In this document: positions 20,241-63,555 of the stretch, one piece after another
How the letters are laid out: the number at the start of each line of letters is the position of its first letter
Numbering within the stretch: position 1 is the first letter of the stretch
From: Hoplostethus atlanticus
Taxonomy: Eukaryota > Chordata > Actinopteri > Trachichthyiformes > Trachichthyidae
Length of the DNA stretch: 64,000 nucleotides
Reading direction: 5' to 3'
Assembly (NCBI GenBank): GCA_034670405.1
Contig: JAXDDX010000117.1
Span: forward strand, 186,001-250,000
Program-made: the position numbers and the translations under genes
Notes under the pieces: model-generated
What the model was told of the DNA's origin: nothing
Database searches by the model: none
What the model saw: only the letters and a program-made list of their open reading frames with translations

Positions 20241-21201
20241 CTCGTATGAAATTGAAATATATATCTTGTTCACACACTATTTGGTAAGGTTTTCTCAAAT
20301 TGTTGTCATGCTATATACTTCATGTATGTCTTCTATCCGTTTCCAGGCTGTGGCTGGGCAGGTTTGGTATCCTTCTGCCCCTTTGTATATTCTGTGTCCC
20401 ACTGTGTTTATTCTGTATACTTTGTTTCATTTTGCTTGCCCGCCTCAGCACCTATTGCACGCCTGATCTGAGTAGTCCCTCCTAAGGTTTCTTTCATTTT
20501 TTTTCGAAGAAGGTTTTGTGGGAGTTTTTCCTTGTCCTCTACAAGGGTCCAAAGTTGGGGGGTGTCATGTGCAGTCATTTCTTGATTTCATAATGTGGGC
20601 AGAGGTGAAACCCTGTGAAGATTAAGGGCTATAAAAACTTGACTTTGTAACTGATTTTTAAAGGGGCTTTGCGTATTTCAACAATATCTCTCACTCTTTG
20701 TCTATTTCATCAAAACAGGCACATCACTAAACGTGCAAACAAACTGTGCATGCGCGCACACCTAAAAAGTTGCGCTTTTAAACACCTTTTTTCTACATTT
20801 CTCCCCTGGGCTATAATTGGTGTTTTCCGACCACAAAAGAACTAGAACCTTTTGGGTACTTTCTGAGCAACCTTCTCAACAAGAACTTTTTTAGTTGCCC
20901 AAAAGAGTTCGAGGTTGCTTTCCGGCCACACCAAAGTACTGGGGAGATTATTCAAATAACAAGAAGTTTAGTTTGGTTTCATACGTCACTTAGGTACACG
21001 ACGACCCCCACAACAACGCCAATTTCAACACAGCAAACACAAAGGAAGCAGCTATGATGTTGATCCACCAAAAAATAAAAAGTTGGTCAATGTATATAAA
21101 TTGATCTTACTCCAACACTGCTTTGGTATGAACATATTAGAATCGTTTTTTGGAACCAAGGCGTGCTGAAGTTGAAGCAGAGATTGAACAAGCCGGTATT
21201 T

Positions 21202-57063: not shown

Positions 57064-58200
57064 GTGGATGCTCAGTACTCTAGTTCCCTCTCCCCTGAAC
57101 TTTATAAAAGGAAGCTTAACCTCCAAACTCAATACAATTTGTTATCAACTGAAAAGACAGAACGACTCTTGTTAAAATCACATGGATATGTCTATGAGCA
57201 TGACAAGAAAGCTGGCCGTCTTTTAGCACACCAACTTAAATGCTGATCAGTTTCTCAACAAATCTATTGACTATTGACCCAGGAGAAATTAATGAAACAT
57301 TTACCTAATTTTACTCAAACCTATATACGTCAGAAATAACAAATGACAGTACTGATATGGAACATTTCTTCAACAATCTCCAGGTTCCTTCTATAAATAC
57401 AATGCATAGGGCTGAGACTGAACTCCCATTACAACATACAGAAATCATTAATGTGATAATGGCAATGCAAAGTGCCTTAGCCATAGAGCCCCTATCCATC
57501 ACAATCATTGCCATCAATAAGTGGAATTCATAGAGGAGGAGAAAAGCATAGATTATCTCTATATGTGGACGATTTATTATTATATGTATCAGACCCTATT
57601 CTAAGTATACCTTTACCTTTATTACCCATGCTTTGGTAAGGGTGAATGCTACCCTGTTAATGACTTGGCTCTTCAAATACAAAATACAAATCCAAATGTC
57701 TAGAAATGGCTTTAAATACTTGGGCATTAATATCACAGGACACATGCAGAGCCTTTATCAGGAAAACTTTTCTCCTATTTGAGAAAGTCAGACTAGATCT
57801 AAAGAAATGGAAAATAATTAACTTGTCCTTGGCAGGAAAAGTAAATTGTATTAAAATGAAGGAGCTCCCCAAATTCCTTTATCCGTTTCAATGTGTCCCA
57901 CTTTATCTTCCTAAATCTTTCTTTAAATCTATTGATAAAGCTTCCATTTCATTTATATGGAATGATAAGAGCCCTAGAGTACGTAAAGAACTACTACAGA
58001 GGCCTAAGCTACAGGGTGGCTTAGCTCTTCTAAATCATTGCTATTATTATTGGGCTGCAAATGCTCAAATAATTATTTACTGGCTTCAAACTCCAGATAC
58101 AGACTGGTGCCACTTTGAAGCTACATCTTGCATTTCAAGATATGGTTTCAATTTAGAAAGAACTTTGGGTTCAAACATTTTCGGAACATAAATCCTATAT
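57064..58200 (+). mobile_element. L1/Tx1-type LINE ORF2 remnant
   Basis: Pieces in order: KRKLNLQTQYNLLSTEKTER with GRLLAHQLK (57090-57246), an INETF-type segment after a gap, the catalytic RLSLYVDDLLLYVSDP near 57555-57600, and the post-RT part WALISQDTCRAFIRKTFLLF, KWKIINLSLAGKVNCIKMKE and SFIWNDKSPRVRKELLQRPK (57706-58191). Internal deletions and frame changes separate them. It is the same type as 39195-39695 but covers different parts. Confidence 0.82.
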
Positions 58201-58365
58201 GCAATAATCACCTTTCTCCCCAAGCTAGATTAGACTCTGCATTCTCTGTTTAAAGAATATGTGAAAACCTTTTTAAAGTGTAAGCAGGAGGCTTCAGGAT
58301 ACCCCAATTGTGTGTGCAGGTGTGCACACATAACTGTGCAGACCCAGCAGCACTACATAAATCAA

Positions 58366-59060
58366 ATCAAATCAAATCACATTTATTTGTATTGCCCTTA
58401 ATCACCGTTACAGTCTCTAAGGGCTTCACAGTGCCCAACATGTGAAAATAATAAATGGTTAGTACACGACATCCCCCAGCCTTAGACCCTCACAGAGGAC
58501 AAGGAAAAACTCCCACAAACCCTCACTGGGAAAATTGGGAGAAACCTTGGGAGGGGCTACTCAGAGAGGGATCCCCCTACCAGGACGGTTGGGCGTGCAA
58601 TAGATGCCGAGTTTGGGCAAGCAGCGTATACACAATATATGAAAGTTTATTTTGGTGGGACATCCAGATCTGATGGGGCGGCATCACAGCAACGGCAACT
58701 CAGTCAGCGTCATCATAGGACTAGGGGACCATGCAGGCGCCAACACTGCCCAGATAGGAGAACGCAACGTCCGCTCAGTCAGCATCGTCCTAGGAGGCGG
58801 GACCAACCAGACGCCAACTCTGCCGGGCTGCAGCCTGGAACAGATAGGAGACTCACCCACACACACCCATACACACACTCTCACTCACACAGACATGACC
58901 AGCGTCAGTGGACAGGAGCAGGTAGACCAGGAGAATAGGACATGTAGGCAGGATGCTAGTATCCATCGGCAGGACCCTGATCTAGGATGAGCTAACTGGT
59001 CTAGCCTTACTCTGAGAAGAGACTGAGCCACTCCCTCAAGGCTGGTCAAATGACAGAGAG
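58366..59060 (-). mobile_element. L2-type LINE 3' UTR
   Basis: On the minus strand, GATTT units at the end are preceded by 'gcccttagagactgtaacgg', 'gtgggagtttttccttgtcc' and 'ttgcacgcccaaccgtcc', the same block as 930-1195. It extends a further 400 bp of 3' UTR, including 'ctgttccaggctgcagcccg', which is shared with 20330-20360. Confidence 0.7.
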
Positions 59061-59246
59061 AATAAAGGATTACTATGACAGAGGTCATACAAGTAGATCA
59101 TACAAGTAGATCCCCAAAAAATCTGTTTAATAAAGCAGTCAGAAGCTGTAACAAGCTCATTTTGAACAGCTTGTGGGGGCGCTAGTAGTAACTGACTCTG
59201 AACAATTCGCACAGTAAATGTTTAGCGACTTATTTGATGTACGTCT

Positions 59247-59650
59247 GTGGCTCTGGTACAGTGGCACTACAAAACTAGCGAGGCCTCTAGAGCTAGAGAT
59301 GTTAACGTGTTCGTAGGTGTAATGACCACCGCCCATGTAAGACTCATGCCGTACGAGCTTTTGGACAAATTACAAGAGACAGTCTTATACTGTGACACTG
59401 ATAGTATAATCTTTGTGTCACGTGATGGGGAATGGATTCCACCATTAGGGTCATATTTGGGAGATTTGCCAGATGAAATCAATGACGGTGAAATCTGCGG
59501 CTCCGAACAGGAAGATTATATTGCGTGTCATCAGGTCCTAAATGCTACGCCTATTGTACACATCAAAACAGAGTCACAGTAAAATGTAAGGACGTCACTC
59601 TGAACTGCAGTGTGCGGTTGTCACGCACCAGACATTGCGCAGACTAGTTG
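59247..59650 (+). pseudogene. DNA polymerase B C-terminal fragment
   Basis: Contains VFVGVMTTAHVRLMPYELLD and then LYCDTDSIIFVS, where YxDTDS is family B motif C with the catalytic Asp pair, followed by LGDLPDEI. Near 59515 the frame shifts and continues with a GPKxYAY-type thumb motif to a stop near 59648. Motifs A and B and the exonuclease domain are absent, so it cannot work. A role in protein-primed replication is known for the family. Confidence 0.8.
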
Positions 59651-60025
59651 AAAGCTTTGTGGCTAATTAGACTACCGGGGAGGTAATAACTACATAGATA
59701 GAGACAATCCAGCGAAAAAAGAAAGATGCAGCTTAAAAACGCTACAGTAGTGAAACTGCTGCAGATTGTTTAGAACAAGCGTAGTGCTTTTCCTGATTAT
59801 ACCACTTTTGTTTTTATTTGCTTGTACAATGTTTTGTTTTTTTCTTTTCCATCTTTTTGTATTTTTTATTTGTATTTTATATTTTAAATATCTGTATTGA
59901 AGGAATTATGTTGTATTTTGTCTTGTTGAAATATGCTGTTTTTTTGCATATTAAATAAATGTGCTAATGTGAAAACATATTTTGACTTGAGTCTTTTTAT
60001 TCATCACATACATACATACATCATA

Positions 60026-60178
60026 ATGGCTACATATATTGGGCTGTATCTGGGACACATTTACAGACTATTGAATCATTACAGACGAGATTATGACTAT
60101 ACTCAACACATTTTGGTAGGATATGCCCTTTGTTGTCTGCATGTGGTAGCCAGATTGTCTTGTACTTGTTTAGAATAA
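60026..60178 (+). CDS. Small ORF, 50 aa, unknown
   Basis: ATG at 60026. The product begins MATYIGLYLGHIYRLLNHYR and ends with a Cys-rich CLHVVARLSCTCLE tail. The stop TAA overlaps an AATAAA poly(A) signal. It sits between the PolB and protease remnants and is convergent with the protease. It has no recognised similarity and could be chance. Confidence 0.3.
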   Translation: MATYIGLYLGHIYRLLNHYRRDYDYTQHILVGYALCCLHVVARLSCTCLE

Positions 60179-60206
60179 AACACATCGTCAGTTCTGGTTA
60201 AGAAAA

Positions 60207-60460
60207 CTATATGGGGTCCGAGAATGCCGTGGGTGTTTTTCCAAACAAATCAAAAAAGTAAGCCTCTCTGCGGGCTGTGATGTATATGGCCAGCCAACGC
60301 ATACCAGGGTAAACTGACCGGATCTGTGTTGACTATCGGCATAGCAGGCAGTTTTTCAATATCGTAGGGAATCTGATCACAGGCAAACACTCCCAAAAAA
60401 AGCCTTTTTGGGATCTGACTTAATAGTGATCCAATAGTACTTGTCTGCAGTTGGATATTT
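60207..60460 (-). pseudogene. Adenain-like cysteine protease fragment
   Basis: The first frame has LGVFACDQIPYDIEKLP and then PIVNTDP. After a one-base shift near 60305 it continues RWLAIYITARREAYFFDLFG to a TAG at 60209-60207. These are the motifs before and around the active-site His and acidic residue of adenovirus/Polinton proteases. The residue before the Trp that is His in the family is Arg here. The Cys half is missing. Confidence 0.7.
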
Positions 60461-60640
60461 CAAGTCATAAACAGCATAGCGGATTAGGTTGACAGTTCTA
60501 TTCAGAACTGTTCTGAACCTTGCCTCTAGCCATACATTTCCTGTTCTGATCAGTGAAACATGTTGTCCACAACCATCGTCAGGCTCGAGAGTAAAACGAT
60601 ATATATCCGTCGGGACACACCGCAAAAACTACGGCCACAG
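60400..60640 (-). pseudogene. Major capsid protein C-terminal fragment
   Basis: Reads IYRFTLEPDDGCGQHVSLIR, then NVWLEARFRTVLNRTVNLIR and YAVYDLKY, the layout of the C-terminal double-jelly-roll strand region of Polinton/adintovirus capsid proteins. Its end overlaps the protease start in another frame, as in related elements. The upstream part is lost at a tandem repeat. Confidence 0.6.
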
Positions 60641-60642
60641 AC

Positions 60643-60683
60643 ACTCAACGATGGCACTCAACGATGGCACTCAACGATGGCTG
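60643..60683. repeat. Three copies of a 13-bp unit
   Basis: ACTCAACGATGGC is repeated three times in tandem where the capsid frame breaks off. Confidence 0.9.
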
Positions 60684-61026
60684 TCAGCTCTCATGTCAGC
60701 CGTATTGGCTGACAGCTGAGATACCAAGGCCGAGGTTCCAAGGCCAACATGTGACCAAGGTACAAGATTTACAAAATTGCAATTTAGCTTTGGAAGCTTT
60801 GTGACCCTTTACAGCTAAAAGCATGCAACAAAACATTAACATCAGTCAGATGAGATTCTTTGTCAGGGGAAGCAAGCAATATACAATGCATGCAAGCATG
60901 TACAATATCATGGTAGAACCACTACGAAATACATCAGCCAAATGTTGACGTAATGCAGCAGAGAAATGATTAGGGCTCTCAGTAAACCCTTGCGGCAATG
61001 CGGTCCAGGTGAAGTCCCAATGAAAG

Positions 61027-61492: not shown

Positions 61493-61513
61493 GAAAGTAA
61501 AGGCAGATCCTGG

Positions 61514-61682
61514 GGGCGTCCTGGTGGCTCAGTGGTCTAAGGCACATACCACATAACCGTGGCATCCTGGATTCGAATCCAGCCCGGGACCTACAGTATG
61601 TCGCATGTCATCCCGCCTCTCTCACCTGATCTTTCCCGTCTCTCTCTACTGACTGTCAAATAAAGGCAAAAAGACAAAAAAT
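61514..61682 (+). mobile_element. tRNA-derived SINE with TSD
   Basis: Head 'ggcgtcctggtggctcagtg' with A box TGGCTCAGTGG and B box GATTCGAATCC, body to 'tgactgtcaaataaaggc', and an A-rich tail. Flanks AAGGCAGATCCTGG (about 61500-61513) and AAGGCAGATACTGG (about 61683-61696) differ by one base and fit a target duplication. It is not a functional tRNA because there is no closing acceptor stem. Confidence 0.8.
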
Positions 61683-62981: not shown

Positions 62982-63555
62982 TACACTATATGGCCAAAAG
63001 TCAGTGGACACCTGACCATCACACCTATATGAGCTTGCTGGACATCCTATTCTAAAGCCATGGGCATTAATATGGAGTTGGACCCCCCTTTGCGGCCATA
63101 ACAGCTGCCACTCTTCTGGGAAGGCTTTCCACAAGCTTTTGGAGTATGTCTGTGAATTTGTGCCCATTCAGCCAAAAGAGCATTTGTAAGGTCAGGCAGT
63201 GGACGAGAAGGTCTGGCTCGCAATCGGCATTCTAATTCCTCCCAAAGGTGTTCAATGGGGTTGAGGTCAGGGCTCTGTGCAGGCCAATCGAGTTCCTCCA
63301 CACCAAACTCGTCTAACTATGTCTTTATGGACCTTGCTTGGAACGTCATGCTGGAACAGCAAAAGGTCTTCCCCAAACTGTTGCCACAAAGTTGGAAGCG
63401 CGCAATTGGCTAAAATGTCTTCGTATCCTGTAGCATTAAGCTCACCCTTCACTGGAACTAAGGGGCCAAGCCCAATCCCTGAAAAACAGGGTGGCTGAAA
63501 CACCTGAACTCAATAATTAGTAGGGGTGTCCACTGACCTTTGGCCATATAGTGTA
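62982..63555 (-). mobile_element. Tc1-type nonautonomous element, 574 bp
   Basis: Starts TACACTATATGGCCAAAAG and ends with the near-perfect inverse, CTTTGGCCATATAGTGTA. Flanking TA is present. The minus strand keeps the end of a Tc1 transposase: GELNATGYEDILANCALPTL, FGEDLLLFQHDVPSKVHKDI and, after a frame change, DWPAQSPDLNPIEHLWEELE. The N-terminal two thirds are missing. Confidence 0.92.

Follow-up and report, generated by a model that had tools for sequence, protein, structure and literature searches.

Introduction

The closest described relatives of the locus reported here are the Mavericks of vertebrates, surveyed by Nino Barreat and Katzourakis (2021; PMC8097293). That survey reports 3,511 loci in 143 vertebrate species, 96% of them eroded, and describes the element as two modules directed towards its centre, one carrying integrase, minor capsid, PW, capsid and protease and the other PolB, ATPase and PZ. 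It gives the ends of the element as (AGT)2//(ACT)2 and describes 6-bp duplications.

The window analysed here is a stretch of 64,000 nucleotides from Hoplostethus atlanticus (contig JAXDDX010000117.1, positions 186,001 to 250,000), and coordinates given without a prefix refer to it. An earlier note, made from the sequence alone, had placed the collapsed relic of a Polinton/adintovirus-type element at 59200..60640. This assignment to type holds. The same genome has protease, capsid and ATPase-like frames beside PolB, and the locus is almost certainly a vertebrate Maverick (a Polinton, or beta-adintovirus-type element) that is truncated and dead. As a genomic fossil it is genuine but unremarkable, one more degraded Maverick of an already described group.

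Results

Alignment of DNA (blastn) to copies of the element in the same genome, searched as an assembly of 632,777,144 bases (~633 Mb), showed that the relic extends from 58,244 to 60,612. This is wider than the span of about 1.4 kb given earlier, and the left edge had to be moved to 58,244 because a young repeat of ~700 bp splits the relic's PolB gene. PolB lies on the plus strand and protease and capsid lie on the minus strand, with the two modules pointing at each other both in the window frames and in the copies. All pieces of the relic are collinear with one element type of the same genome, and the part that survives is the centre of that element, towards which the PolB and capsid modules both point. 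Frameshifts or stops occur in all three surviving genes and each gene is truncated, as judged from the window frames and from the proteins of the copies compared with the window.

The first PolB fragment (fragment A, 58,244-58,306, plus strand) directly precedes the motif B region; its 63 nt are 98.4% identical to seven of the eight fetched copies, 96.8% identical to the eighth and identical at 63/63 positions to L036, and by eye a weak continuation can be followed to about 58,361. The second (fragment B, 59,062-59,805, plus strand), recognized by blastn, a protein block and PHROG 1907, has broken frames and ends just before the C-terminal end of the protein. It contains NKLILNSLWGR (59,150-59,182) and YCDTDS (59,388-59,405), which we take to be a motif B-like stretch and motif C, respectively, and GPKCYAY (59,534-59,554) in a frame other than that of YCDTDS. 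Fragment B is 80.6-82.0% identical with gaps to all eight fetched copies (blastn) and its open block is 91-92% identical to all eight in protein, the homology stopping at 59,805, a few codons short of the PolB stop of the copies. The piece at 59,238-59,579 matched the PHROG 1907 DNA polymerase (E=9.6e-8) as well as all four of the candidate public proteins compared with it (57-67% identity, E 1.8e-11 to 7.2e-21), one of which shares both a DGExxGxxQEDYI stretch and the GPKxYAY block. Taken alone, the window piece matched no Pfam family; PF03175 (type-B PolB, viral/organellar) is matched by the copies to which it is so similar, with 83 matches in the assembly, several of them inside open frames of 1354-1390 aa.

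On the minus strand, an adenain-type protease interrupted by stops and frameshifts (60,020-60,459) corresponds to residues 5-180 of a 191-aa frame in copy L015, which matched the window at E=5.6e-24 and 1.3e-7. GVFACDQIP and VNTDP lie in the minus frame 60,459-60,250, and RWLAIY and FFDLFG in the minus frame 60,332-60,207. The same L015 frame matched PF00770 (Peptidase_C5) at E=1.8e-7, above the cut-off, and weakly matched solved adenoviral proteases (E 0.008 to 0.02). A capsid-like C-terminus lies in the minus frame 60,628-60,377; the frame-broken piece at 60,423-60,612 corresponds to residues 395-457 of a 457-aa frame found upstream of the protease frame in L016 (E=5.4e-20 to the window). 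The DNA alignment of the capsid gene reaches 60,612 in L018 and L019 and 60,597 in L016, and weakly continues to 60,639. At the right edge of the relic, near the fading of this alignment, three copies of a 13-bp direct repeat were observed (60,642-60,686).

The protease and capsid frames of the copies match the window in collinear order, and the adenain-type protease lies downstream of the capsid gene in both. The overlap of protease start and capsid C-terminus reported earlier is one between frames read from stop to stop. The first methionine is residue 23 in all three of the copy protease frames, and in L016, by frame coordinates, it falls beyond the capsid stop.

Neither minus-strand fragment yielded its identity directly. 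Searched alone, the window's protease and capsid fragments had no relevant match in Pfam, in PHROGs or among PDB sequences, and the capsid fragment had no homologue in the protein collection. Even the 457-aa capsid frame of L016 matched no Pfam family and had no meaningful match among solved structures (best E=0.19). Its homologues at E up to 0.001 number 893. The closest named ones are from fish, from which, together with repeat remains recognized by eye, the window looks like DNA of a teleost. Among the matches listed (120 of 893) many, from fish, reptiles and amphibians, carry the label uncharacterized protein F54H12.2-like. This label we assume to mark Polinton capsid proteins. A structural model of the window's 83-aa capsid fragment folded poorly (pLDDT 53) and was discarded. 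The model of a capsid homologue, P0013, built from a 25-row alignment (pLDDT 72), matched capsid proteins of PBCV-1 (E=3.2e-17), grouper iridovirus (1.5e-16), Sputnik (4.2e-15), Faustovirus (2.7e-14) and mavirus (5.2e-14), with TM-scores of about 0.5-0.6 to the matched proteins (PBCV-1, Sputnik and mavirus among them), and it also matched viral capsid proteins in BFVD. With the modelled fold of this homologue, the capsid piece is identified as the C-terminal end of a major capsid protein of double jelly-roll type.

Profile searches with the three fragments, as suggested in the earlier note, therefore succeeded for PolB only. That note had named the lack of a profile match for two of the three fragments as grounds for giving up its reading, and this is what direct searching returned; the result is overridden by the same-genome copies. 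The identities of the protease and capsid pieces were settled because relatives in the same genome could be compared, so that all three proposed identities hold, PolB through PHROG 1907 and the other two through the frames of the copies. The motifs listed earlier are all present in the window, and the PolB and copy-frame matches go beyond chance: the same 12 query proteins searched against the reversed window gave 54 matches at E up to 10, the best at 0.008, far weaker than those to the true sequence. That chance motifs or unrelated sequences happen to lie side by side might have seemed plausible from the protease and capsid fragments, which lack a direct profile match. The weakness of the decoy matches and the collinearity of the pieces with one element type speak against it, and the same-genome copies refute it, leaving it a vanishingly small probability.

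The organization of the missing parts was read from five pieces downstream of PolB, fetched from copies (L015 to L019: L015, L016, L017, L018 and L019). In L015 and L016, open frames of 246, 133 and 267 aa share the strand of PolB, and beyond a spacer a frame of 191 aa lies on the opposite strand. In L018 the frames on the strand of PolB are of 163, 133 and 267 aa, followed by 158 and 412 aa on the other, and L019 has 246 and 370 aa followed by 191 and 439 aa on the other strand. L017 has only the 246- and 133-aa frames and the central block is absent. The 246-aa frame of L015 is ATPase-like, its match to Pox_A32 being weak and short of the cut-off (E=3.8e-4). No Pfam family was matched by the 133- and 267-aa frames, which by their position would correspond to the PM and PZ genes of PMC8097293. 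In L015 (copy C827), the next long minus-strand frame is a reverse transcriptase at L015:3076-3999, where the capsid gene would continue, and that gene looks interrupted.

Alignment to the copies placed a deletion junction at 59,805-59,807, where positions 223-2028 of L018, comprising the PolB end and the ATPase-like, 133-aa and 267-aa frames, are missing from the relic. The collapse is thus a deletion of ~1.8 kb that removed the ATPase and two further genes and brought PolB against the central spacer, and both outer parts of the element are also gone. In a search of the window at E 0.01, the ATPase-like, 133-aa and 267-aa frames of L015 found nothing. Both sides of the junction are visible in eight of the ten fetched pieces (L015, L016, L018, L019, L032, L034, L035 and L036), where they are 1.0-1.8 kb apart; in the other two, L017 and L033, the central block is not seen. 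The earlier proposal of a collapsed element with convergent genes is upheld for the collapse. The convergence is native to the copies and to the vertebrate Mavericks as described in PMC8097293, and deletion as the cause of the gene order was rejected, since the copies are convergent without it.

The retention of the central spacer beside an internal deletion is also what would be seen in a non-autonomous deletion derivative that had spread in its short form with the help of proteins from full copies. We regard this as very unlikely: terminal repeats are absent, and when a query across the junction was searched against the genome, none of the 39 other scored matches crossed it or extended past position 69 of the 161-position query (40 of the 102 candidates were scored). 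With a 1.8-kb query, all 39 other scored matches ended at query position 806 or 809 (40 scored of 1197 candidates), none reaching beyond 809. The spacer itself (59,807-60,019), which aligns to that of the copies, contains AATAAA on both strands (59,954, plus; 59,996-60,001, minus). It is scarcely credible that the central block, with antisense capsid and protease and these poly(A) hexamers, was kept through use by the host, for example as a putative source of small RNAs against intact-looking copies; we favour a simple remnant of a Maverick.

The earlier note had also suggested searching the genome for complete copies with terminal inverted repeats, and one was found. In copy C333, which spans 14,859 bp, the inverted repeats align over 370 columns at 98.9% identity, start with AGTAGT and end with ACTACT, and CACCGC is present on both flanks as a 6-bp duplication. 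A 373-aa frame near one end matched the rve core (E=9.4e-12) and Chromo (E=1.4e-8). For copy C509 terminal repeats were not found, and the right-hand piece fetched was a host retroelement with reverse-transcriptase frames. When C333 was compared with the window, its terminal repeats gave a best match of only 24 nt (E=0.019) and its integrase-bearing piece gave no match from within the element. A short stretch at 61,513-61,558 is repeated next to C333, outside the element, in a SINE-like region. No target-site duplication was found at the relic. With no ATPase, rve integrase, terminal inverted repeat or 6-bp duplication found in the window, the relic is a fragment of a Maverick and not a complete member of the group.

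The lack of a terminal repeat in the window, together with the position of both relic edges inside genes, would also fit the capture by end-joining of a piece of viral DNA, comprising the PolB end and the capsid module, that was never a full insertion made by integrase. However, full or near-full copies are common in the genome, and one that decayed after insertion would look no different. We consider such a capture unlikely, and prefer arrival as a full element followed by decay.

Within PolB, a young high-copy repeat occupies 58,362-59,060. It was 100% identical (rounded) to all 39 other scored matches in the genome (40 scored of 2271 candidates, including the window), from which it follows that the repeat arrived late; its family has been active very recently. 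The repeat is at least 699 bp long and opens with TCAAA units, and in L040, the sole other copy read, similarity appears to extend slightly beyond 59,060. Two more diverged pieces lie elsewhere in the window, near 948-1188 and 20,467-20,614, and an Rfam scan of the repeat found nothing.

The relic itself is older. Without gaps it is ~90% identical to the copies (660/731 columns to L011 for PolB, 701/783 to L018 for the other block), and over 59,245-59,805 it is 7.5-10.5% diverged from the eight copies compared there. Eight copies are 98.7-99.5% identical to each other. The dN/dS of the open PolB block against the eight copies is 0.12-0.13, calculated from 13-15 synonymous and 7-8 other changes, which suggests that most of the difference built up while selection still acted on the gene and that the relic comes from a lineage other than that of the young copies. 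Fragment A, at 97-100% identity to the copies, stands above the ~90% of the rest of the relic; this excess may reflect chance or a separate history, and has no obvious explanation under a single one.

Finally, scans of viral_contigs with single fragments, a PolB alignment and two degenerate patterns reached no Mavericks. Among the hits, L001 was a 12-residue match in a 157-kb contig and was attributed to chance, phi29-like phage capsid genes are present in L003 and L005, and L006 had only a 26-aa frame at the match; all were set aside. One metagenomic viral contig, L002, encodes at L002:3084-7598 a 1505-aa PF03175 polymerase collinear with both window PolB pieces; no capsid was recognized among the ORFs scanned, and none of the five others scanned received a confident Pfam name. 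Beside the relic, a 175-aa open frame at 57,664-58,191 resembles by eye the end of a LINE reverse-transcriptase ORF, for which Pfam found nothing, and a minus-strand frame at 63,047-63,316 resembles by eye the end of a Tc1/mariner transposase.

Discussion

Judged from the families to which its proteins belong, the intact element would most likely replicate with a protein-primed PolB and be inserted by the integrase; its ATPase would package the DNA, and the adenain-type protease would mature the double jelly-roll capsid that receives it. The relic is incapable of replication, packaging, maturation or insertion because every gene is truncated and frame-broken, and a present function is not likely. 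We infer that a full element arrived and that both outer parts and the 1.8-kb internal block would then have been lost; the repeat was inserted later.

The locus offers a worked case in which two of three fragments were invisible to direct profile searches and became certain once same-genome copies were compared. The host genome is of some interest in itself, with many similar copies that have long open PolB frames.

Among known systems, the adenovirus endoprotease family PF00770 is matched by the 191-aa frame of L015 and not by the window's own broken fragments. With the beta adintoviruses, as described in PMC11071296, the element shares PolB, a hexon-type capsid and an adenain-type protease, and one copy has an rve integrase with a C-terminal chromodomain; this likeness is drawn from the description. 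The OTU-like PolB domain of the adintovirus definition was not found by Pfam in the 371-aa N-terminal piece of one copy (L031:2-1114), a part that the window does not have, and for this reason we prefer the name Maverick; this group and the beta-adintovirus concept overlap (PMC11071296). Unlike the vertebrate Maverick layout, the relic is without the ATPase, the two neighbouring frames and both ends, and its PolB abuts the central spacer. It nevertheless has the facing modules and the order of capsid then protease described for vertebrate Mavericks in PMC8097293, the ends and 6-bp duplication of which are seen in copy C333, and it is degraded, as are most of the loci known from that survey.
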